From a virus: DNA of 39,482 nucleotides. Under the pieces are notes generated by a model, which was not told where the DNA came from, did not search any database, and worked only from the letters and a program-made list of their open reading frames with translations. Below, piece by piece: positions 23,992-33,045 of the stretch; within the stretch, counting starts at the first letter, position 1, and every line of letters starts with the position of its first letter. The translations under genes were made by a program, and so were the position numbers. Location of the stretch: the IMG/VR virus record IMGVR_UViG_3300012005_000022, positions 1-39,482 of that record; one strand, 5' to 3'.

Positions 23992-24231
23992 ATGAGCGAG
24001 CTCGATGAACGGAACCGCTTTGCGGAGAAGCGTGACCCCGATCCATCGAAACGCCTCGGGATCAGCCTTCCGCCGTCGCCCGATCAGTGTCCGACCTGCT
24101 ACGGGTGGGGAACGATCGCGGGCGACGTGACGCCATACCCGTTCTGCCCTGACTGCCACGGGTGGGGGACACTGCCGCTTGCTGAGTTCACCCGTGGCTC
24201 GAGTACCGATGCCAGCACGTCTACGCACTGA
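23992..24231 (+). CDS. DnaJ-type zinc-knuckle protein (79 aa)
   Basis: A paired CPTCYGWGT and CPDCHGWGT (residues 33-41 and 52-60) is the CxxCxGxG knuckle of DnaJ, here with G-W-G in place of G-x-G. In phages such proteins are small zinc-knuckle hypotheticals. ATG is preceded by GGATGGCGG. Its 3' end overlaps the next gene. Role unknown. Confidence 0.72.
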   Translation: MSELDERNRFAEKRDPDPSKRLGISLPPSPDQCPTCYGWGTIAGDVTPYPFCPDCHGWGTLPLAEFTRGSSTDASTSTH

Positions 24232-24496
24232 CCCCAACAGGCAGCAGAAGCGGCGCAAACAACTACTACCCTCAGCACTCGACACCTACTGCCCATGTGG
24301 CATGGCAGGGTGCACACACAGATGTGACGGGTGGATGACTGACCCACGACGCATGGACTGCGACCACACCGTGCCCGTCGTACTCGGTGGAGGCGCAACA
24401 CCAGGCGACAGGATCATCTGCTCACCATGCAATCGCTCGGCTGGTGCCACGTTAGGCAACCAACTACGTGGCAACAGGGCATCACGCGACTGGTGA
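24209..24496 (+). CDS. HNH endonuclease, short (95 aa)
   Basis: A compact HNH nuclease, of the size found next to terminases in cos phages, where it assists cos cleavage. Core: DHTVPVVLGGG (Asp52-His53), then GDRIICSPCNRSAGATLGNQL with Cys71, Cys74 and Asn75. A second metal site uses cysteines near 28-39. The ATG overlaps the DnaJ-like gene; a start at 24179 lies deep inside that gene. It is upstream of the non-coding block that may hold cos, so a packaging role is more likely than homing, but both are possible. Confidence 0.82.
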   Translation: MPARLRTDPNRQQKRRKQLLPSALDTYCPCGMAGCTHRCDGWMTDPRRMDCDHTVPVVLGGGATPGDRIICSPCNRSAGATLGNQLRGNRASRDW

Positions 24497-24506
24497 CACA
24501 CACATG

Positions 24507-24554
24507 AGTTACGCGTGTAGTTACGCCTGAAGTTACGCCTTCGATTACGCCTAG
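24507..24554. repeat. Four 12-bp iteron-like direct repeats
   Basis: Four units at exact 12-bp spacing share the core (A/G)(G/A)TTACGC(C/G): AGTTACGCGTGT, AGTTACGCCTGA, AGTTACGCCTTC and GATTACGCCTAG. The unit length is close to one turn of DNA. This could be a binding site for the terminase, the HNH or a replication protein. It lies at the start of a 366-bp non-coding block. Confidence 0.75.
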
Positions 24555-24811
24555 CCACTACCCCTGCCCACCCATGCCAACCCCTGCCATGGCACGGGTA
24601 GACACCCCCCGCCAAGACACCCCCCGAACTGACCCCCCACGGGGGTGGGGTGGGGGTGGTGCCTGATTCGTGCAGATTTGCGCTGGATTCGCTCGATTTC
24701 TGGATATATAGGCAGGCGAAAGACCCCGCTGCTCACAACTTCTGTCCCTACCGGCGTCGGTCCCGTGACCGACCGCTACCCATAAGCAGCCCCGACTTGC
24801 TCTCGGGGTTA
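24555..24811. other. Non-coding block, candidate cos region
   Basis: No convincing gene. From 24558 a near-perfect 11-bp inverted repeat (CTACCCCTGCC against GGCACGGGTAG, one mismatch, 22-base loop) is followed by three GAC-C-run elements at 15-base spacing (near 24600, 24615 and 24630). Next come a C-run/G-run hairpin (24632-24646) and a G-rich tract with runs of 5, 4, 5 and 2 G up to 24659, able to form a two-tier quadruplex. An A/T-rich TATATAG lies near 24704-24712. Position between two HNH genes and just before the terminase genes makes cos likely; the cut site is not identifiable. Confidence 0.45.
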
Positions 24812-24862
24812 GAACGGCCCGGCATCCAAGGTGTCGGGCCGTTCGCATCCCTTGGAGAAGAA
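24812..24862 (+). promoter_or_regulatory. Hairpin leader of HNH gene, homologous to the leader at 31153-31205
   Basis: A 9-bp perfect stem GAACGGCCC/GGGCCGTTC (24812-24820 with 24836-24844), followed by CGCATCCC and a TTGGAGAAGAA ribosome site five bases before the ATG. The Endo VII-type gene elsewhere in this window has the same arrangement with an AT to GC pair change on both stem strands. It may prevent read-through into the HNH gene or regulate its translation. Confidence 0.7.
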
Positions 24863-25468
24863 ATGCCACGCAGACCTGACGTGCCATGCAACCGTTGCGG
24901 TGAACTGATGTGGCGCGGTGAAGGGTCCCGTCCTGAAGGCCAGTCACGTTGCCGAACATGCAGGGGTATCGAGGCGCAGCCGTACGGGCCACGTCCGGGG
25001 AGCGTACGGCCCCGTCCCGCAGTTCGTCTGACGATCTGTCCGTGGTGTTCGACGGAGTTCGTAGGGCGCAACAAGTGCTGCAGTCGCAAGTGCGCGTGGG
25101 CAAGCGCAGGTGAGCAGCAACGTGTGCGCGCTCTGGATAGCCCGCACCAACGCCGCTGTGACCGCGCCAAGTCCGCACTCGGGCTCAGCAGTTCCGAGCG
25201 GTCGAACCTGCTCGCGCGGTGGATGCGGCAAGGCAAGTCGTGCGCTTACTGCGACGCGCTGGCTACGACCGTCGATCACGTCATCCCGCTGGTTCGGGGC
25301 GGCACGAACTACGAGGGCAACCTCGTCCCTGCCTGCCGCTCCTGCAATTCACGCAAGGCGGCCCGCTTGGTCATCGAGTGGCGCATGGGCAGGAAGGCGC
25401 GAGGGAGGTCCAGCGATGCAACGCAACTGCGCATCGTGCGGCGTGCTCTACGACGCGAAGCGGCCTAA
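24863..25468 (+). CDS. Zinc-finger/HNH endonuclease (201 aa)
   Basis: The ATG has a GGAGAAG ribosome site; the longer frame upstream crosses the G-rich tract and was rejected. Two N-terminal zinc fingers (Cys9/12/30/33 and Cys59/62/73/77) are followed by a helical linker and the HNH core: CAYC at 127-130, DHVIPLVRGG at 138-147, then NLVPACRSCN with Cys158, Cys161 and Asn162. It ends inside the terminase small-subunit gene. The same zinc-finger-plus-nuclease build and the same leader are seen in the Endo VII-type gene at 31206. It may be a homing endonuclease or a packaging HNH. Confidence 0.85.
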   Translation: MPRRPDVPCNRCGELMWRGEGSRPEGQSRCRTCRGIEAQPYGPRPGSVRPRPAVRLTICPWCSTEFVGRNKCCSRKCAWASAGEQQRVRALDSPHQRRCDRAKSALGLSSSERSNLLARWMRQGKSCAYCDALATTVDHVIPLVRGGTNYEGNLVPACRSCNSRKAARLVIEWRMGRKARGRSSDATQLRIVRRALRREAA

Positions 25469-25808
25469 CTCGAAGTACCACAACGACACGTGTCGTAAGC
25501 GCGCCCAACGTGCTCCCGTCAAGCCTGCCGAGATGCCGCCGCCACCACTGCTACTCGGAAACGCGCCGCTGACGGCCGCGGTCCGCAGTGAGCTCACCGC
25601 GGCAGCCCGTCTGGACTCAATGCTCGGTCAGGCCGCGCTCGCCCTGGCCGGGCGCATCGATTCGCCGCACGAGTCGGGCGCCTCGGTGGCGTCGCTGGTC
25701 AAGCAGTTGCGGGAGACGATGGTCGACGCGCTGAAGGGTGCGGAGAAGGCCGCCGATGTGCTGGACGAGATAAGGGCGCGACGTGACCTCAAGCGATCTG
25801 CTGGTTAG
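25416..25808 (+). CDS. Terminase small subunit (zinc-finger N-terminus)
   Basis: 130 residues. An N-terminal FCS-like finger (Cys5, Cys8, His22, Cys26) precedes a helical C-terminal domain: AAVRSELTAAARLDSMLGQAALALAGRID, then SVASLVKQLRETMVDALKG and a final DVLDEIRARRDLKR, the pattern I associate with small terminase subunits of actinophages. It recognises the packaging site and recruits the large subunit. GAGGGAGGT ribosome site upstream of the chosen ATG; start inside the HNH gene and 3' end inside the large terminase gene. Confidence 0.72.
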   Translation: MQRNCASCGVLYDAKRPNSKYHNDTCRKRAQRAPVKPAEMPPPPLLLGNAPLTAAVRSELTAAARLDSMLGQAALALAGRIDSPHESGASVASLVKQLRETMVDALKGAEKAADVLDEIRARRDLKRSAG

Positions 25809-27249
25809 GCCGGCGTTCTACTCGGGTCCGGCATACACACGGACCCTCGGGCCTGAGGTTGGCGAGTTGTGCGACCTGATCGGGTTCGGGCCGGACGCTG
25901 AGCAGCAGATGCTGCTCGATGACATCTTCGCTCTGGACTCGCGCGGCATGTCCGCGGCGTTCGAGACTGCGGTGATCGCGTGCCGGCAGAACTTGAAGAC
26001 TGGCCTGTTCAAGCAGGCGACGCTCGGGTGGTTGTTCGTCACGGATCAGCGGCTGGTCGTGTGGTCGGCGCACGAGTTCCGCACGTCGCAGGAGGCGTTC
26101 CGGGACATGGAGCAGCTGATCGCGGGTACCCCGATGCTCGCGAAGCGGGTGAAGAACATCTATCGGGGCAACGGTGACGAGGCGATCGAGCTTCACTCCG
26201 GTTCGCGGCTCATCTTCAAGGCCCGCACGAAGGGCGGCGGGCGCGGCCTGACTGGGTCGAAGGTGATCCTCGACGAGGCGTTCGCTCTGAAGCCTGAGCA
26301 CATGGGCGCGTTGTTGCCGACGCTGTCCGCGGTACCGGATCCGCAGGTGCTGTACGGCTCGTCCGCGGGTAACGCCGATGCGGCGGTGTTGCGGGCGATC
26401 CGTGACCGTGGCCGCAAGGGTGATCCGCGAATGGCTTACGCGGAGTGGTGCGCACCGCAGGATTCGTGCGCGTCGACCGGTTGCGACCACGCGCTGGACA
26501 CGCCGGGTTGCGCCCTCGACAACGTCGCGTTCTGGTATATGGCGAACCCGACGTTGGGGAAGCGGATGACGGTGGCGCACATCACTGCTGAGCGTCGCGC
26601 GATGCCACCTGAGGAGTTCGGCCGCGAGCGGCTGGGGTGGTGGGATGAGGCTTCGGGCCAGATGGTCGTGCCGACTGCGGCGTGGGCGTCGTGCCTGGAC
26701 CTCAAGAGTCAGATCGTGTCGGCTCCGTGCTTCGCTTTGGACGTGTCGCCGGCCCGGTCGTGGGCCGCGATCGGTGTCGCTGGCATCCGTGCCGACGGTC
26801 TGCCGCACATCGAGATCACCTCGACCAAGGGTGTGGTCGATCACCGGCCTGGTGTCGACTGGGTTGTCCCCCGATGCGTCGAGCTACGCGAACGCTGGTC
26901 GGGGATGACGTTGACCATCGCATCGGGTTCGGCCGCTGAGTCACTGGTCCCGGCGCTTGTCCAGGCAGGTTTCGACCTGGTGTTCGTCAAGACCGGCGAC
27001 GTCGCCGCAGCGTGCGGCATGGTCTACGACAAGGCGACCACGCAGGGCCTGCGTCACATCGGCCAGTCTGAGCTGACCATGGCGCTGGAGTCCGCCCGGA
27101 AGAACATCGACGACGGCGAAGGCGCATGGCGTTGGGGTCGCAAGAAGTCCGGTGAGGACATCTCGACCCTGTACGCCGCCACGTTGGCCCTCTGGTCAGC
27201 GATCGCTGCGCTCGACAAGTCCATGGACCCCGCGAACAACGTGTGGTGA
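25783..27249 (+). CDS. terL: Terminase large subunit
   Basis: Packaging motor ATPase and headful/cos nuclease of 488 residues, normal length. N-terminal ATPase: P-loop-like ACRQNLKTG (residues 66-74), adenine-binding upstream region, and Walker B with catalytic Glu in VILDEAF (161-167). The C-terminal nuclease domain carries DVSPARSWAAIGVAG with an aspartate for metal binding and later acidic residues near the end (KKSGEDISTLYAATLALWS). GTG start, chosen because it follows the small-subunit overlap. The gene is convincingly complete. Confidence 0.95.
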   Translation: MTSSDLLVRPAFYSGPAYTRTLGPEVGELCDLIGFGPDAEQQMLLDDIFALDSRGMSAAFETAVIACRQNLKTGLFKQATLGWLFVTDQRLVVWSAHEFRTSQEAFRDMEQLIAGTPMLAKRVKNIYRGNGDEAIELHSGSRLIFKARTKGGGRGLTGSKVILDEAFALKPEHMGALLPTLSAVPDPQVLYGSSAGNADAAVLRAIRDRGRKGDPRMAYAEWCAPQDSCASTGCDHALDTPGCALDNVAFWYMANPTLGKRMTVAHITAERRAMPPEEFGRERLGWWDEASGQMVVPTAAWASCLDLKSQIVSAPCFALDVSPARSWAAIGVAGIRADGLPHIEITSTKGVVDHRPGVDWVVPRCVELRERWSGMTLTIASGSAAESLVPALVQAGFDLVFVKTGDVAAACGMVYDKATTQGLRHIGQSELTMALESARKNIDDGEGAWRWGRKKSGEDISTLYAATLALWSAIAALDKSMDPANNVW

Positions 27250-27260
27250 GAGGGGTTCGC

Positions 27261-27401
27261 GTGTATCGCAAATGGATCACGACGGCCCTTGAGGTCACCG
27301 GTATGGCGCTGATCGTGGCGGGTGTGACGATCCTGCTGCCTGTCGCCGGTCTGATCGCTGCTGGGATCGCTCTGGTCTTGATCGGGGTGTTGTCCGCGTG
27401 A
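27261..27401 (+). CDS. Two-helix membrane peptide between terminase and portal (46 aa)
   Basis: GTG start 11 bases after the terminase stop, TGA overlapping the portal GTG. After a basic RKW start, two hydrophobic helices (EVTGMALIVAGVTILLPVAG and LIAAGIALVLIGVL) are joined by a short turn, so it is an integral membrane protein. Such a gene between terminase and portal is unusual; possible roles include anchoring assembly at the membrane, but there is no evidence beyond position. Confidence 0.66.
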   Translation: MYRKWITTALEVTGMALIVAGVTILLPVAGLIAAGIALVLIGVLSA

Positions 27402-28627
27402 GCCTGTTCCGTCGCTCAGTGCGTGCCGCGTGGTCTGGTGAGCCGATCATCCCGCCGTTCCCTGGCGCTGCCGGGTTCGGTGGCAGCAACGCGGCGCCGA
27501 GCATGGATCAGGCCATGCAGGCATCGGCCGTCTGGGCGTCCGTCTTCCTCGTCGCCGACACGGTGAGCATGATGTCTCTCGACGCCTACACGAAGCGTGC
27601 TGGCGTCCGAGTGCCGACCCCGAACCCACCACTGCTAGATCGCCCGTCCAGTGATGCGCTGATGCCTGACTGGATCTCGATGATCGTGGTGTCAATGATG
27701 CTCCGCGGCAACAGTTACGGGCACATTCTGGGCTTCGATCGTGATGGCTACCCGAACGAGATCGAGATCATGGACCCTGACGTCCTGCGGGCGCGCATGG
27801 ATCGGTCCACCGGCAAGATGGTGTACCAGAACCCCAATGGCAGCGTGATCCCCAATAACCGGATGTGGCACACGAAGGCGTACCGGCTGCCGGGTCGCCC
27901 CTTCGGGTTGTCTCCGATCCAATACGCGGCCACCCAGATCAACACCGACAAGGCGATCAGCACGTTCGCGCTCGGCTACTTCCAAGACGCACCTCATCCG
28001 TCGAGTGTCCTGACCTCGGACCAGTCGATCAACCAGGAGCAGGCGCGCACGATCAAGGAACGGTTCCTGTCGTCCGTGAACGGCCGTGAGCCGTTGATGC
28101 TGGGCGCCGGCCTGAAGTTCCAGAACCTGTCTGTGAGCCCCGAAGAATCACAGTTCCTGGCTACACAGAAGCTGGGTATCGCAGGTATCGCCCGGATCTT
28201 CAAAGTTCCCCCGGAGATGATCGCGGCCGAGGCGGGGAACTCGATGACCTACGCGAACATCGAGTCGAAGGGCATCGACTTCCTGACCTACTCGATCCAG
28301 CCGTGGCTGACCCGCCTCGAAGCCTCGATCTCCGCGCTGATGCCCGGAAAGCACCATGCACGCTTCGACCCGTCCGTGCTGGTCCGCACTGACCTTGCGG
28401 AACGGACGAAGGCCGGTGCGATCGCGATCGCATCGAAGCAGCAGACGCCGGACGAGGTTCGTGCGTGGTCTGATCTGCCGCCGTTGACCGATGAGCAGAA
28501 GGCGTGGCTGAAGATTGTTCCGCTGGCCGTCAGCCCGACCGGGCTACCGAAGGCGCTCCCGGGCGCGATGGCTGCCGCTTCGACCGCCGCTGACCCCGTT
28601 GATACGCAAGGAGACCCGACACCATGA
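27398..28627 (+). CDS. Portal protein (HK97 type)
   Basis: Forms the dodecameric DNA gateway at the capsid vertex. 409 residues, typical. Conserved-looking elements are the opening AMQASAVWASVFLVADTVSMMSLDAY, DWISMIVVSMMLRGNSYG, LRARMDRSTGKMVYQ, HTKAYRLPGRPFGLSPIQYAA (near 155-178) and the clip/stem region with LGIAGIARIFKVPPEMI. GTG start overlapping the membrane peptide stop. The C-terminus ends DTQGDPTP, mirrored at the end of the next gene. Confidence 0.94.
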   Translation: MSLFRRSVRAAWSGEPIIPPFPGAAGFGGSNAAPSMDQAMQASAVWASVFLVADTVSMMSLDAYTKRAGVRVPTPNPPLLDRPSSDALMPDWISMIVVSMMLRGNSYGHILGFDRDGYPNEIEIMDPDVLRARMDRSTGKMVYQNPNGSVIPNNRMWHTKAYRLPGRPFGLSPIQYAATQINTDKAISTFALGYFQDAPHPSSVLTSDQSINQEQARTIKERFLSSVNGREPLMLGAGLKFQNLSVSPEESQFLATQKLGIAGIARIFKVPPEMIAAEAGNSMTYANIESKGIDFLTYSIQPWLTRLEASISALMPGKHHARFDPSVLVRTDLAERTKAGAIAIASKQQTPDEVRAWSDLPPLTDEQKAWLKIVPLAVSPTGLPKALPGAMAAASTAADPVDTQGDPTP

Positions 28628-28839
28628 GCTTTGAACTCGACGCTCTTGAGGCCTACGTCGCTCGCACCGGCGACACGGTGATCCTCAACTATCCGAACCG
28701 TGAAGTGTCGATGGAGATAGCGGAAGTCATCAAGAAGAAGGCCATGGCTGTCCTACCTAAGGGCGTCAAGGTTTTGATCGTTTCCGGTGCTCAAGTCCTC
28801 ATCGCCCGAGGCGACACCGAAGGAGACCCCACACCATGA
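28624..28839 (+). CDS. Small protein between portal and protease (71 aa)
   Basis: ATG overlaps the portal stop. An acidic helix (ELDALEAYVARTGDT), a strand pair and a basic helix (EIAEVIKKKAMAVLPKGVKVLIVSG) make a compact alpha/beta fold. The last residues (GDTEGDPTP) and the preceding DNA repeat the end of the portal gene and its ribosome site, so the ORF looks inserted within a duplicated start region. Function unknown; could be a small head accessory protein. Confidence 0.68.
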   Translation: MSFELDALEAYVARTGDTVILNYPNREVSMEIAEVIKKKAMAVLPKGVKVLIVSGAQVLIARGDTEGDPTP

Positions 28840-29600
28840 GCAATTTCGGACTGCACGAGCGCCGGATGGCCGTCGAGAGCTTGGAGATCCGCGAAGAAAG
28901 CGACTCCCTGACCCTGTCCGGGTATGCGTCCACCTTCGACGAGCCCTACGACATGGGCTGGTACACCGAGACCGTCGACCGGGGCGCATTCGCCCGCACA
29001 CTGGGCACCAAGCCCGATGTGCGCCTGCTCATCAACCATGGCGACCTTCCGTTGGCCCGTACCGCCTCAGGGACGCTCACCCTGGACACGGACAGCCGCG
29101 GCCTGCGGGTGAGTGCCAACCTCGACCCAACGGATCCCGACGTGGCGCGCATCGCGCCCAAGATGCGCCGCGGTGACCTGAACCAGATGTCCTTCGGATT
29201 CCGCACGAACGAAGACGAGTGGTCCAAGGACATGAGCAAGCGGACCTTGCGCGCCCTCGACCTCGCCGATGGTGACGTGTCCGTGGTCACCTACCCGGCG
29301 AACAAGGGCGCGATGGCCGCGCTGCGCGGTGCCGGGATCGCGGTCGACGCCATCGCCTCCGCGCTGCGCTCGCTCGAGTTCCGTAGCGCATCCGCCGAGG
29401 ACATCGCCTCGGTCCTGACCCGTGCCCTCGCCTACTTCACCGCGGTCGACCTGATCGTCGACGAAGCGCAAGAGGACATCGCCGAGGCCCTGAACATTCC
29501 GAACCCCGACGACGAAACCGACGACGCGCCGATGCCCGGCATGGCGTCCGCGGTCGCCTACCACGAACTCCGTGAGCGCATCCTCGCGCTCATCGGCTGA
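28836..29600 (+). CDS. Prohead maturation protease (HK97 gp4 type)
   Basis: Serine protease that cleaves the scaffold domain of the capsid protein before DNA packaging. His68 (in LLINHGD) and Ser119 (in QMSFGF) are the catalytic pair of the S78/U35 family, in the normal order and spacing, and SLTLSGYASTFDEPYD is the typical entry. Residues about 160-254 form a divergent, helical, acidic tail. Ribosome site AAGGAG before the ATG, which overlaps the previous stop. 254 residues, normal for actinophages. Confidence 0.92.
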   Translation: MSNFGLHERRMAVESLEIREESDSLTLSGYASTFDEPYDMGWYTETVDRGAFARTLGTKPDVRLLINHGDLPLARTASGTLTLDTDSRGLRVSANLDPTDPDVARIAPKMRRGDLNQMSFGFRTNEDEWSKDMSKRTLRALDLADGDVSVVTYPANKGAMAALRGAGIAVDAIASALRSLEFRSASAEDIASVLTRALAYFTAVDLIVDEAQEDIAEALNIPNPDDETDDAPMPGMASAVAYHELRERILALIG

Positions 29601-29636
29601 AGTACCAGCACTTCCCGCTCACCAGACATACCGACG

Positions 29637-29670
29637 CACCAGACGCGCCCCGCAACGGCGCCCGCTGGTG
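29637..29670 (+). terminator. Hairpin between protease and major capsid genes
   Basis: CACCAG/CTGGTG outer arms and GCGCC/GGCGC inner arms make a stem with small bulges in the 134-bp gap ahead of the capsid gene. It could attenuate upstream transcription or mark an mRNA processing site so that capsid mRNA is separately abundant. A CAGGAAGG ribosome site follows for the capsid. Confidence 0.5.
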
Positions 29671-29734
29671 ACTCGCCGATGCCTGCGGAGAGGCCAGAAC
29701 ACACCACCAATCCTCCTCACAGGAAGGCACCATC

Positions 29735-31087
29735 ATGCTTGAAGCAGTCAGGGCGCAAAGGAAGGCCCTCAAGGCCCACCTCGAAGCTCTCAACAAGGGC
29801 GCAGTCGACGACAAGGGCGAAGCCCGCGCCATGACCGACGCCGAGAACACCGAGTTCGACGCCGGGATCGTACGGATCAAGGCCCTCGACGAACGCGAGA
29901 CCGAGCTCGTCGAGCTCGAGGCCCGCGAGGATCGCGCCGCCGCGCACCGGGTCGAGACCGGCCTCGTGCCGGTCGGTGACGGTGTCACCCACGAACCGAA
30001 CCCGGTCTACCGGCAGGGCGACCACACCACGTCGTTCTTCCGCGACCTCGCCATGTCTCAGCTCAACACGAGCATCGGCAACGGCTCCGTCACCGAGGCT
30101 CGTGGCCGTCTGGCCCGCGCGCAGGAGACCCGCGCCGGGGACATGACGACCGCCACCGGCTCCGGTGGCGCATTCGCACCGCCGCTGTGGCAGGTCGAGA
30201 ACTTCATCGCCCTGGCCCGTGCGGGTCGGGTCACCGCGAACCTGGTCCAGTCCGAGGTGCTGCCCTCGGGTGTCTCCTCGATCAACCTCCCGAAGGTTTC
30301 CACGGGAGCGTCGGTTGCGGTTCAGGCCACCCAGAACACGGCACTGTCCGACACGGCGATGACCACGACGAGCGTGTCCACCGGCATCACCACCGTCGGC
30401 GGCAAGCAGATCATCTCCATGCAGCTGCTCCAGCAGTCCGGGATCCCCTTCGACCGGGTCATCCTCGGTGACCTCGCCAAGGCGTACGCCATCCAGGTCG
30501 ACACGCAGGTGCTGTACGGGGCGGGTTCGGGTGGCGAGGTTTCCGGTCTCGTTGGTGTCGCCGCGAACACGGCGTTCACCTCCGCGGCCCCGGCGCCGTC
30601 GTCTGTGACGAACGCGAACAGCCTGTACTACGCGATCGCGAAGGCTGCGGCGGCTGTGCAGACGGCGATCTTCGAGGTGCCCGACGCGATCGTCATGTCC
30701 CCCGCCCGGTGGGCGTGGGTCGTCGGTTCCGTCGACACCGCTGGCCGTCCGCTGGTCATCCCGAACGGGGCGAACTTCAACCCGCTCGGCACCACCGGCG
30801 TGCAGGTCGCACAGGGTCTGGCCGGCTACTTCGGCTCGTACCCGGTGTACACGGACCCGAACATCTCGGGTGCGGCCAACTCGGCCACCAACCAGGACGA
30901 GATCTACGTCCTGAAGCGGGACGAGGTGTGGCTCTACGAGTCGGCAGTGCAGACCGAAAGCTTCACGGCAACGTACGCGGACAACGCTTCGGTGCTTTTC
31001 CGCATCTTGGGATACATGGGTCTGATTGCGAACCGTTATACCGGGGCGGTCGGGTCGATTCGCGGGACAGGACTTGTCACGCCTTAG
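29735..31087 (+). CDS. Major capsid protein (HK97 fold) with scaffold domain
   Basis: 450 residues. Residues about 1-70 are a long helical, charged region typical of the delta scaffold domain removed by the protease (LEAVRAQRKALKAHLEALNK onward). The main body begins near residue 90 with DHTTSFFRDLAMSQL. The segments ITTVGGKQIISMQLLQQSGIPFDRVILGDLAKAYAIQVD and ANSLYYAIAKAAAAVQT and the P-domain strands are the classical HK97-fold features. AGGAAGG ribosome site upstream of the ATG. It is separated from the next gene by 118 bp holding a hairpin leader. Confidence 0.94.
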   Translation: MLEAVRAQRKALKAHLEALNKGAVDDKGEARAMTDAENTEFDAGIVRIKALDERETELVELEAREDRAAAHRVETGLVPVGDGVTHEPNPVYRQGDHTTSFFRDLAMSQLNTSIGNGSVTEARGRLARAQETRAGDMTTATGSGGAFAPPLWQVENFIALARAGRVTANLVQSEVLPSGVSSINLPKVSTGASVAVQATQNTALSDTAMTTTSVSTGITTVGGKQIISMQLLQQSGIPFDRVILGDLAKAYAIQVDTQVLYGAGSGGEVSGLVGVAANTAFTSAAPAPSSVTNANSLYYAIAKAAAAVQTAIFEVPDAIVMSPARWAWVVGSVDTAGRPLVIPNGANFNPLGTTGVQVAQGLAGYFGSYPVYTDPNISGAANSATNQDEIYVLKRDEVWLYESAVQTESFTATYADNASVLFRILGYMGLIANRYTGAVGSIRGTGLVTP

Positions 31088-31097
31088 GTAACGGTTT

Positions 31098-31205
31098 CTG
31101 ATAAACCGGACCGGCTTATCAGGCAGGAATCCGCGTCTAATTAACGCGGCTAGGACGGCCCTGAGTCTCCTGGCTTGGGGCCGTCCGCATCCCCAGGAGG
31201 AAACA
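31098..31205 (+). promoter_or_regulatory. Three-hairpin leader after capsid, before Endo VII gene
   Basis: Three stems in a row: CTGATAA/TTATCAG (31098-31122), CCGCGT/ACGCGG with a 7-base loop (31131-31149), and GGACGGCCC/GGGCCGTCC (31153-31161 with 31178-31186). The last is followed by CGCATCCC and AGGAGGAAACA, five bases before the ATG. This last part is homologous to the leader at 24812. The first stem likely stops the abundant capsid transcript. Confidence 0.72.
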
Positions 31206-31745
31206 ATGAATACGTGCCAGTGTTGTGGAATCGAATACATGCGCCATGTCGGCAAAGGGCGTCCTAGTCGGTTCTGCTCGCGCAGTTGTCAGGGGCGAGC
31301 GCTGTATCTAAGTAACCAGGCCGCTGCGGGGATTGTGCGAATGGCTCGATCGTGCGCACAATGTGGCGAACTGGTCTCTGATTCGGCGCGAACGGACGCT
31401 ATATACTGCTCGATTAGGTGCCGAGAGCTGTTCAATTACAACAAAACCGGCGCAACTCAGCGTCTCCGTAAGTGGGGCCTGTCGGTCGCTGACTATGACC
31501 GAATCCTTGCAACACAGGGTGGCGCCTGTGCGGTAGACGGTTGCACTGTTTCAGTCAACGAGAACGGCCGCCGCCTGCACGTCGACCACGACCACGCATG
31601 CTGTCCAGGCAACAACAGTTGCGGCGCCTGTATCCGTGGCCTGCTCTGCGGCCAGCACAACGTCGGGATCGGAATGTTCAACGACGATCCCAGGATGCTC
31701 AGGGCCGCAGCCGAGTACCTGGAACGAAGCCGGGTGTCAGCATGA
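31206..31745 (+). CDS. Endonuclease VII-like HNH endonuclease (179 aa)
   Basis: The C-terminal half fits the recombination endonuclease VII (T4 gp49-like) family: HVDHDH at 125-130, cysteines near 132 and 139, IRGLLCGQHN at 143-152 and the helix ending DPRMLRAAAEYLE. Members resolve branched DNA or act as homing nucleases. The N-terminal half carries two zinc fingers (Cys4/7/24/28 and Cys50/53/68/72). The GC content looks lower than in neighbours, and the gene sits alone behind a hairpin leader between capsid and tail-joining genes, so a mobile insertion is likely. Ribosome site AGGAGGAAAC. Confidence 0.85.
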   Translation: MNTCQCCGIEYMRHVGKGRPSRFCSRSCQGRALYLSNQAAAGIVRMARSCAQCGELVSDSARTDAIYCSIRCRELFNYNKTGATQRLRKWGLSVADYDRILATQGGACAVDGCTVSVNENGRRLHVDHDHACCPGNNSCGACIRGLLCGQHNVGIGMFNDDPRMLRAAAEYLERSRVSA

Positions 31746-32359
31746 GCACCTATCCCAACTGGTTCGGCTGCTACGCGGACCGTTTCTTCGCCCATCACCT
31801 GTCGCCGCTCGCGGGCCGTGCTGGTCGGCGGTTCTTGCAGATCGGGGCGTTCACGGGTGACGCATCGGTATGGCTGTTCGAGCACATCCTGACCGGCCCG
31901 AATGCGACGCTCGTCGACGTTGATACGTGGACGGGCTCGGATGAGCAGGCGCACGAAGCCCTCGACTTCGCGGACGTCGAACGGGTCTATGACGAACACA
32001 CGTCGGGGCTAGTCGAGTCTGGGCGTCTGCGTAAGTTCAAGGGATCAAGTTCGTCCTTCTTCCGATCGAGAGCAGCTCTTGAAGGACTCTTCGGGCTCTT
32101 CGACTTCATCTACATCGACGGGGACCACACAGCGGTCGGCGTCCTGTCCGACGCGGTCCACGCCTACGAGTTGCTGAAGGTCGGCGGCCTGATCGCGTTC
32201 GACGACTACCTGTGGAAGTCCGGCAAGGGCCGCCTGCACGATCCCAGCCCGGCGATCGACGTGGTGGCTGACCTCTACAGCGACCGGCTGGAAACGCTCG
32301 ACAACCCGCAGATGCCCGGCCAGAGCCCTTTGCAGGTCTGGTTCAGGAAGACCCGATGA
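31742..32359 (+). CDS. SAM-dependent methyltransferase (capsid-region, 205 aa)
   Basis: Class I methyltransferase with a Rossmann motif FLQIGAFTGDASVW (residues 31-44) and a FDFIYIDGDHTAVGVLSDAV motif (about 121-140) followed by VGGLIAFDDY, as in the Methyltransf_24-type families. There is no DNA-methylase DPPY, so a small molecule or sugar is the more likely substrate. The ATG overlaps the Endo VII stop, and the stop overlaps the glycosyltransferase start, so the three form a coupled unit. Possible role: building or capping a glycan on the virion (inference). Confidence 0.8.
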   Translation: MSTYPNWFGCYADRFFAHHLSPLAGRAGRRFLQIGAFTGDASVWLFEHILTGPNATLVDVDTWTGSDEQAHEALDFADVERVYDEHTSGLVESGRLRKFKGSSSSFFRSRAALEGLFGLFDFIYIDGDHTAVGVLSDAVHAYELLKVGGLIAFDDYLWKSGKGRLHDPSPAIDVVADLYSDRLETLDNPQMPGQSPLQVWFRKTR

Positions 32360-33045
32360 GAACCAAAGACCAGGTCTCGATCGGCTGGATCGACCCCGGC
32401 GTAGTAGACGGAATGTTCGCCCTGTCCATCGCGAACGTCTACGCGAACCGGATGGACCGGATCGACGCGCTCATGCGGGTCGAAGCGGGCGGTTTGCTCA
32501 GTCGCGGCCGCAACGAGCTCGTAGATCGGTTCATGACGACCAGCACCGCGGAATGGCTGCTGATGATCGACTCCGATGAGCAACTGTCGTTGGAGGCGTT
32601 CGACAAGCTCGTCGCCGCGGCACACGACAAGGCTCGGCCGATCGTGGCGGGCTTGTATTTCGGGGCATGGCCGGGCGAGTTCTATCCGACCGCGGTCCCG
32701 TTGATCTTCCGCCGGGTCCCTGACACGACCACGTTCCGGTCGATCACCGATTATCCGCCCGACAAGGTCATCAAGGTCGATTCGGCGGGCACGGGCTGCC
32801 TGCTGATCCACCGCAGCGTGTTCGAGGCGTTCCAGGTCGAAGCGTCGCCGCATGAGGGCAAGCAGTGGTGCTGGTTTCGGGACATGCCCGTCAACGGCGC
32901 CTGGTTCTCCGAGGACCACTTCTTTTGCGCTCGCGCGATCGAACTGGGCTTCCCCATTCACGCGCACACGGGCGCGACCCTGCCGCACCGTAAACGGTTC
33001 TGGCTCACCGAGGCGCACCACTTAGCGAGCAGGGAGGCGACGTGA
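32356..33045 (+). CDS. Glycosyltransferase, GT-A fold (capsid-region, 229 aa)
   Basis: An atypical GT2/GT-A-like glycosyltransferase. The metal/nucleotide-sugar-binding DSD is at residues 72-74 (in WLLMIDSDEQ), preceded by LSRGRNELVDRFMTT. SEDHFFCARAIELGFPI late in the chain is the acceptor/catalytic ED motif common to these enzymes. It follows the methyltransferase without a gap. Phage glycosyltransferases near capsid genes are known to decorate virions in some mycobacteriophages; that is the leading idea here but the acceptor is unknown. Confidence 0.82.
   Translation: MRTKDQVSIGWIDPGVVDGMFALSIANVYANRMDRIDALMRVEAGGLLSRGRNELVDRFMTTSTAEWLLMIDSDEQLSLEAFDKLVAAAHDKARPIVAGLYFGAWPGEFYPTAVPLIFRRVPDTTTFRSITDYPPDKVIKVDSAGTGCLLIHRSVFEAFQVEASPHEGKQWCWFRDMPVNGAWFSEDHFFCARAIELGFPIHAHTGATLPHRKRFWLTEAHHLASREAT

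Follow-up and report, generated by a model that had tools for sequence, protein, structure and literature searches.

The closest precedent for the element described here is, by analogy, the T4-type homing endonucleases (I-TevI/II/III, segB and Aeh1 mobE), where hairpins mask the ribosome-binding site and a late promoter within the structure makes a short unmasked transcript (PMC2988022, PMC3014915). We analyzed an IMG/VR viral record, IMGVR_UViG_3300012005_000022 (39,482 bases, the whole of which is called the window), in which two nuclease genes, a zinc-finger HNH gene starting at 24863 and an Endo VII-type gene starting at 31206, are each preceded by a structured leader. As in the T4-type genes, RNA structure would mask the Shine-Dalgarno (SD) sequence of a phage nuclease gene, here in silico, and the proposed logic is the same, namely, that a selfish nuclease is kept quiet on long transcripts. 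The T4-type leaders, however, are simple hairpins, whereas in the actinophage leaders the loop of a long hairpin, P2, pairs with the SD sequence as a pseudoknot and there is an extra hairpin, P1. Also unlike the T4-type leaders, they form one homologous family that is common to unrelated nucleases and other genes in phages and prophages of actinobacteria. We consider it probable that each leader acts in cis as an RNA pseudoknot, closing off the ribosome-binding site of the gene that follows, and its function, as judged from sequence, is most likely that of a default-off translational brake. A scan of both leaders called no sigma70-type promoter, although phage-specific promoters would be missed by such a scan.

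Access to the ribosome-binding site is similarly controlled in the SAM-II, preQ1-II, and SAM/SAH riboswitches, in which the 3' strand of the pseudoknot is the SD sequence. Unlike these riboswitches, the leaders have no Rfam riboswitch match, no metabolite logic downstream, and a much longer P2 stem. The autoregulatory pseudoknot of T4/T2 gene 32, which is situated about 67 nucleotides (nt) ahead of the start and from which the binding of gp32 nucleates (PMC3014915), is likewise a phage mRNA leader pseudoknot tied to translational control, but it does not itself pair with the SD sequence and there is no sequence relation. The start-associated sequences of cluster K mycobacteriophages (SAS, and ESAS for the extended form), which consist of a 13-bp element, GGGATAGGAGCCC, with 17-bp inverted repeats upstream, are also conserved inverted-repeat elements at actinobacteriophage translation starts (PMC3203893). 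Among described repeats at the starts of actinobacteriophage genes they come nearest to the leaders. The SAS is nearly invariant within a genome whereas the SD side of the actinophage leaders varies and covaries. In TM4 no match to the SAS longer than 4 bp was seen in the 60 nt upstream of the SAS copies, where the R1 model likewise gave no convincing hit, and the SAS/ESAS motif is absent from the leaders; with no loop-SAS complementarity on one side and no motif on the other, the two elements are different. At the gathering score Rfam 15 gave no match in the window or in eight relatives, relaxed Rfam searches gave only chance-level matches far below threshold, and no description of the leader family was found in the open-access PMC literature. 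Apparently, this is an undescribed RNA family, absent from Rfam 15, that works like the known structures masking ribosome-binding sites.

The two leaders of the window

The P2 loop of leader 1, TCCAAGG (24825-24831), is perfectly complementary to CCTTGGA (24850-24856), in which most of the SD sequence lies, and in leader 2 the same holds for CTCCTGG (31167-31173) and CCAGGAG (31193-31199). With its 13-bp stem each leader is predicted to be an H-type pseudoknot over its own SD sequence, and in both the pseudoknot ends 6 nt before the start codon. An earlier note, made by a model from the letters alone, had placed homologous hairpin leaders ahead of these two genes and both are there: leader 1 reads TAGAACGGCCC...GGGCCGTTCGCATCCC ahead of ATG 24863, and leader 2 reads TAGGACGGCCC...GGGCCGTCCGCATCCC ahead of ATG 31206. 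The 9-bp stem with a loop of 15 to 16 bases that it described has to be redrawn as a stem of 13 bp with an apical loop of about 7 nt, while the stem pair that it saw changed from A-T to G-C is a real compensatory change and many more were found across the family. It also held the loops to be completely different. Their sequences are indeed different, but each loop is complementary by Watson-Crick pairing to the SD region of its own leader and is therefore not free to vary.

The features of the two leaders and of the genes behind them, all on the plus strand, are as follows.

24788..24810, +, leader 1 hairpin P1, 8-bp stem with 7-nt loop CTTGCTC at 24796-24802; P1 pairs covary in relatives
24812..24844, +, leader 1 hairpin P2, 13-bp stem (24812-24824/24832-24844) with apical loop TCCAAGG at 24825-24831; P2 has compensatory changes
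24845..24849, +, leader 1 linker L3 (GCATC), joining P2 to the pseudoknot strand; GCAT is nearly invariant in the family
24850..24856, +, leader 1 predicted pseudoknot 3' strand CCTTGGA, overlapping the SD sequence (TTGGAG) and pairing with 24825-24831
24863..25468, +, putatively regulated gene 1, zinc-finger HNH nuclease of 201 amino acids (aa); Pfam HNH, 1.9e-10
31131..31149, +, leader 2 hairpin P1, 6-bp stem with 7-nt loop CTAATTA at 31137-31143
31153..31186, +, leader 2 hairpin P2, 13-bp stem (31153-31165/31174-31186) with loop strand CTCCTGG at 31167-31173
31187..31192, +, leader 2 linker L3 (GCATCC)
31193..31199, +, leader 2 predicted pseudoknot 3' strand CCAGGAG, covering the SD sequence AGGAG and pairing with 31167-31173
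31206..31745, +, putatively regulated gene 2, Endo VII-type nuclease of 179 aa with N-terminal zinc fingers; Pfam Endonuclease_7, 5.7e-18

Compared with shuffled sequence the folding z score was -5.8 for leader 1 and -4.0 for leader 2, and a covariance model built from relatives scored them at 71 and 81 bits, respectively, with both leaders in its training set. No further exact copy of the 3' block of the leaders was found within the window. The two leaders of the window are real and homologous.

Pairing of the P2 loop with the Shine-Dalgarno sequence

A protein search with the HNH nuclease gave 17 viral loci, and six entries (five distinct leaders, L094 and L095 being duplicates) had the same anatomy, mostly with a different loop/SD pair such as TCCCTAGG/CCTAGGGA or CTCCCGG/CCGGGAG. 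Further members came from DNA pattern scans that did not depend on proteins, a scan of GTDB contigs, BLAST against phage records, and a covariance-model search of genomes, and with them the family comes to about 95 distinct leaders (101 in the detector list, of which a few are chance matches). The pattern scans and the covariance model are biased to GGAA/TTCC stems. In the detector list a pseudoknot run of at least 7 bp was seen in 90 of 101 members. Since the detectors required a run of at least 6 bp they cannot prove the run, and we therefore rely on the swap, decoy, fixed-register, and sister-pair tests.

The complementarity between loop and SD sequence averaged 7.8 bp (45 leaders, 44 with one chance hit removed), whereas 200 swaps of loops and SD sequences between members gave a mean of 4.7 bp and a maximum of 5.2, and shuffled loops gave 3.7. 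As decoys we used 1,490 other hairpins ahead of SD sequences, which peaked at 3 to 4 bp with a mode of 4 as against a mode of 8 for the family; some of the high scorers among these decoys are unlisted family members. An ungapped alignment of 22 rows, made from one large group of equal length with a single register for every row and conservative because some true members were scored as broken, had 14 pairs of P2 and the pseudoknot altered on both sides and covariation at 5 of the 7 pseudoknot pairs. The covariation score of P2 plus the pseudoknot was 0.455 in these 22 rows and at most 0.137 in slid registers, and none of 500 shuffles scored as high. Importantly, over the 47 nt of P2, linker, and pseudoknot the only two differences between the Arthrobacter phages Persistence and Hestia are partners in the pseudoknot, T-A in one and G-C in the other, and the sister pairs L258/L272 and L265/L271 have a change from C-G to T-A in the pseudoknot. 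The SD sequence is predicted to be bound more strongly in the pseudoknot duplex than by 16S rRNA in 77 of 81 leaders.

The earlier note had also offered these leaders as terminators. A plain intrinsic terminator, or an insulator, that serves the gene before it and stands near a ribosome-binding site only incidentally would be in keeping with a GC-rich stem between genes, which in several loci stands behind a highly expressed capsid gene, and some actinobacterial terminators lack long U-tracts. There is, however, no U-tract (the tail is GCATCCC) and no forward terminator or promoter call at either leader, and a terminator needs neither the covariation of loop and SD sequence nor a conserved spacing to the start codon. 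Nor did the relatives turn out to be generic stems before random genes without the conserved CGCAT, by which, according to the same note, ordinary terminators were to be recognized. We therefore regard a terminator as quite improbable and reject it as the main role of the leader.

Some observations weigh against the occluding pseudoknot. In a single leader (L108) the strand that pairs with the loop falls 5' of the SD sequence and not over it, and in the Streptomyces phage Xkcd426 there is a P2-like hairpin with neither a pseudoknot nor a nearby start. An L3 linker of 4 to 6 nt is short beside a P2 of 10 to 14 bp. According to a rough A-form model about 37 A has to be spanned along the surface, for which 6 nt fit with a P2 of 11 to 14 bp while 4 to 5 nt are strained unless P2 frays; on this model one would expect some members to fray at the foot of P2 or to form the pseudoknot only in part. 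Finally, the downstream genes are not all nucleases and hence control of nucleases is a majority rule only.

Anatomy of the family and probable action of the leader

The common order in the family is P1, P2, linker, the strand that pairs with the P2 loop over the SD sequence, and the start codon. P1 is a stem of 5 to 9 bp with a loop that is typically 7 nt, followed by 1 to 3 nt ending in A, and the length of P2 that is compatible with the pseudoknot is 10 to 14 bp. The linker of 4 to 7 nt, mostly 4 to 6, starts with GCAT (GCAU in the RNA), usually with 1 to 2 nt more. The pseudoknot strand forms 6 to 9 bp, covers on average 72% of the SD core, and ends mostly 4 to 9 nt, most often 5 to 7 nt, before the ATG or GTG. 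Compensatory changes were seen in 17 of 18 pairs of P1 and P2.

With the pseudoknot closed, the 30S subunit would be unable to bind and the output of the nuclease, or of another gene, would be low or would come only once the pairing opens. Such a brake would suit freshly inserted and potentially harmful nucleases in heavily transcribed late operons, after the capsid gene or before the terminase genes, toxicity being a candidate motive. Two possibilities for release stand foremost: some factor might act by way of P1, or the upper P2 might compete with the pseudoknot. We think it unlikely that translation is coupled to that of the upstream gene, given that the capsid stop at 31087 lies 66 nt ahead of P2 in leader 2 and that distances from stop to leader vary widely among loci.

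The competition may amount to a two-state translational switch, set by a ligand, a protein, or temperature, in which an apical P2 leaves the SD sequence free (ON) and the pseudoknot masks it (OFF). We hold this as a possibility and would not expect it to be the case; it refines the explanation by an occluding pseudoknot and does not contradict it. The upper P2 and the pseudoknot strand overlap in many members, in which P2 can be extended to 14 to 16 bp with bases of the pseudoknot, and these upper pairs covary (columns 47-49 with 62-64); the constrained 7-nt loop of P1 is also what a recognition element would have. On the other hand, the loops of L110, L127, and L173 are long enough for the pseudoknot without any competition. 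Moreover, leader copies in the same genome (the window, L270, and G948) carry different P1 loops, contrary to what is expected if one phage factor reads the loop, and therefore we consider such a factor unlikely.

The commonest P1 loop is CUGAUCC, its frequency being partly inflated because one of the scans required that loop, and the unbiased sets gave CUGAUCA, UUGAUCC, CUAGCUA, GUAGCUC, CCAGCUA, CUAAUUA, CUCGCGG, CCGUACA, and others. The loop of leader 2 (CTAATTA) is also that of Persistence and Hestia. We rejected a role of UGAUCC as a docking (standby) site for the 3' tail of 16S rRNA because loops with AGCU, AAUU, CGCG, and GUAC do not match it. Positions 3 to 6 of the loop are a 4-nt palindrome (GAUC, AGCU, AAUU, CGCG, GCGC, or GUAC), the exception being the UUGCUC class (core TGCT). 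The loops were self-complementary in 13 of 14 pairings, a count that none of 20,000 permutations reached, with the loop classes picked after the data had been seen. P1 resembles in this respect the kissing homodimers of viral dimerization loops. It might be a self-complementary kissing loop within a U-turn-like (YUNR) loop, such that dimerization of leaders opens or locks the pseudoknot and translation of the nuclease tracks the amount of phage mRNA, a proposal that we regard as doubtful. Because copies in the same genome differ in the P1 loop, they would not pair with each other. If dimerization were true, the leader would be a copy-number sensor, and an RNA switch responding to dosage would be passed among unrelated phage genes.

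Little work has been done on how actinobacteriophages control their free-standing nucleases. An occluding pseudoknot, in what is a widespread family, would link these nucleases by one translational mechanism and would make it testable how selfish nucleases stay quiet in late operons. In laboratory actinobacteria the leader could also be put to use for the control of translation.

Downstream genes and distribution

In 78 downstream proteins Pfam recognized HNH (57), HNH_3 (4), Endonuclease_7 (2), and T5orf172/MUG113 (2), families which overlap. Most of the proteins thus carry nuclease domains of the mobile or homing type (HNH, Endo VII, and GIY-YIG), and the HNH nucleases come from unrelated subfamilies. 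What the proteins best have in common is a series of CxxC fingers at the N terminus, ahead of the nuclease core; the earlier note had seen the CxxC...C(S/T)xxC fingers in the two proteins of the window, and they prove general among the downstream nucleases. Its proposal of a structured 5' element that probably controls the nuclease agrees with a homologous family that has further covariation and usually stands before HNH or Endo VII genes, and the covariance-model search with comparison to Rfam that it suggested yielded many relatives, further covariation in the stems, and no Rfam match. Its expectation that every match would stand before an HNH or Endo VII gene did not hold. Glycosyltransferases of phrog_34859 are directly behind the leader in L108, L292, L317, and L329, connector-like proteins of 80 aa in L263, L288, and L270, a likely terminase large subunit in L342, and a helix-turn-helix (HTH) protein in L359, the last two named from sequence only, and there are also proteins of unknown kind. 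The leader is not specific for nucleases.

In L108, from 3271 onward, the leader ahead of the glycosyltransferase gene has a loop (TTGGGATG) that pairs 5' of the SD sequence. The leader in L492 is ahead of an open reading frame (ORF) of 149 aa with a weak LAGLIDADG_3 match, below the cut-off (E 0.023); possibly this is a further type of homing nuclease that uses the leader.

A structured RNA directly 5' of a small HNH nuclease brings to mind an RNA that acts in trans, a guide or small RNA that the HNH protein would use in the way that IscB uses omegaRNA. However, the element overlaps the SD sequence and also stands before genes that do not code for nucleases. Unlike IscB, which combines RuvC and HNH parts and is accompanied by HEARO RNA, the proteins of about 150 to 330 aa have only HNH or Endonuclease_7 (Endo VII-type) domains and zinc fingers with no RuvC part, and no Rfam family, HEARO included, matched in the window or in eight relatives. 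A guide RNA is therefore extremely unlikely.

Identical or near-identical leaders are found ahead of unrelated proteins in L265/L271, L133/L203, L109/L164, and L278/L112, and therefore leader and gene have been exchanged separately; the mobile unit of the earlier note survives in the form of a leader that recombines as a module. Such leaders look like an exchange junction, and loop cores are often palindromic (GATC, AGCT, AATT), as might be the case for an element acting in DNA, be it an insertion target, a recombination junction, or a site recognized by a nuclease at the border of a mobile cassette, with RNA structure secondary. This we judge to be very unlikely, since the stems vary freely with pairing kept and since pairing between loop and SD sequence at a fixed distance from the start codon is the logic of RNA and translation.

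The leader also corrects gene starts in deposited genomes. The HNH genes Persistence gp89 (L207 1559-2272) and Hestia gp91 (L500 1297 onward) were deposited with starts about 500 to 600 nt too late, and in both phages the leader and SD sequence are directly ahead of a much longer ORF with zinc fingers.

The window has genes for an integrase, DNA methyltransferases, terminase, portal, head protease, capsid, and tape-measure proteins, and from the nature of its relatives we regard it as a temperate phage of actinobacteria; a DNA similarity search for the phages nearest to the window gave almost nothing. Leader 1 lies between a small HNH gene on its 5' side and the zinc-finger HNH gene, followed by a TerS-like gene (25110) and the terminase large subunit gene (25783). 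The major capsid gene (29735-31087, phrog_2263, 7.9e-46) precedes leader 2, the Endo VII gene directly follows it, and beyond are methyltransferase-like, glycosyltransferase, and head-tail adaptor genes, the glycosyltransferase (32356-33045, phrog_34859) being two genes past the Endo VII gene. There is usually one copy of the leader per record and there are two in L270, G948, and the window. In G948, an independent phage, the copies (C1:24471 and 34839) are in the same two places as in the window (24194-25468 and 31087-33045), one ahead of a zinc-finger HNH gene and the other ahead of a glycosyltransferase behind a probable capsid gene.

The members come from IMG/VR, actinobacterial genomes, and named Mycobacterium and Arthrobacter phages, namely, Dante and other F1 mycobacteriophages and the Arthrobacter phages Persistence, Hestia, Phrank15, and Anekin. 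A strong model match was seen in 13 of 395 sampled members of one actinobacterial class and in 18 of 201 of one order; upon inspection of the loci roughly half of these matches were real, the weak ones being mostly chance. The pattern scan of GTDB contigs gave mostly unrelated chance matches, and only L221 and L227 of Spongiactinospora were recognized as real. When the model was run on many Endo VII loci, no leader adjoined the matched gene, and the single match, in L043, was elsewhere in the locus.

A subfamily with GAGA(G/C)CCC...GGG(C/G)TCTCGCC stems (L353, L355, L356, L359, L373, L414, L448, L451, and L489) occurs in prophage-like loci of chromosomes and in viral contigs. It stands ahead of small unknown or HTH genes and adjoins HNH genes in several loci. 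The P2-like hairpin of Xkcd426, GGAAGCCCC...GGGGCTTCCGCAT (L499 13-53), is at the extreme left end of the genome ahead of the terminase genes. An unrelated and AT-richer Endo VII locus, L032, has a different hairpin (2771-2850) whose loop (TGTGAGGGGT) pairs with 10 nt just 5' of the SD sequence and in which TTAGGTA also pairs with TACCTAA at the start codon; possibly this is a convergent leader that masks the start.

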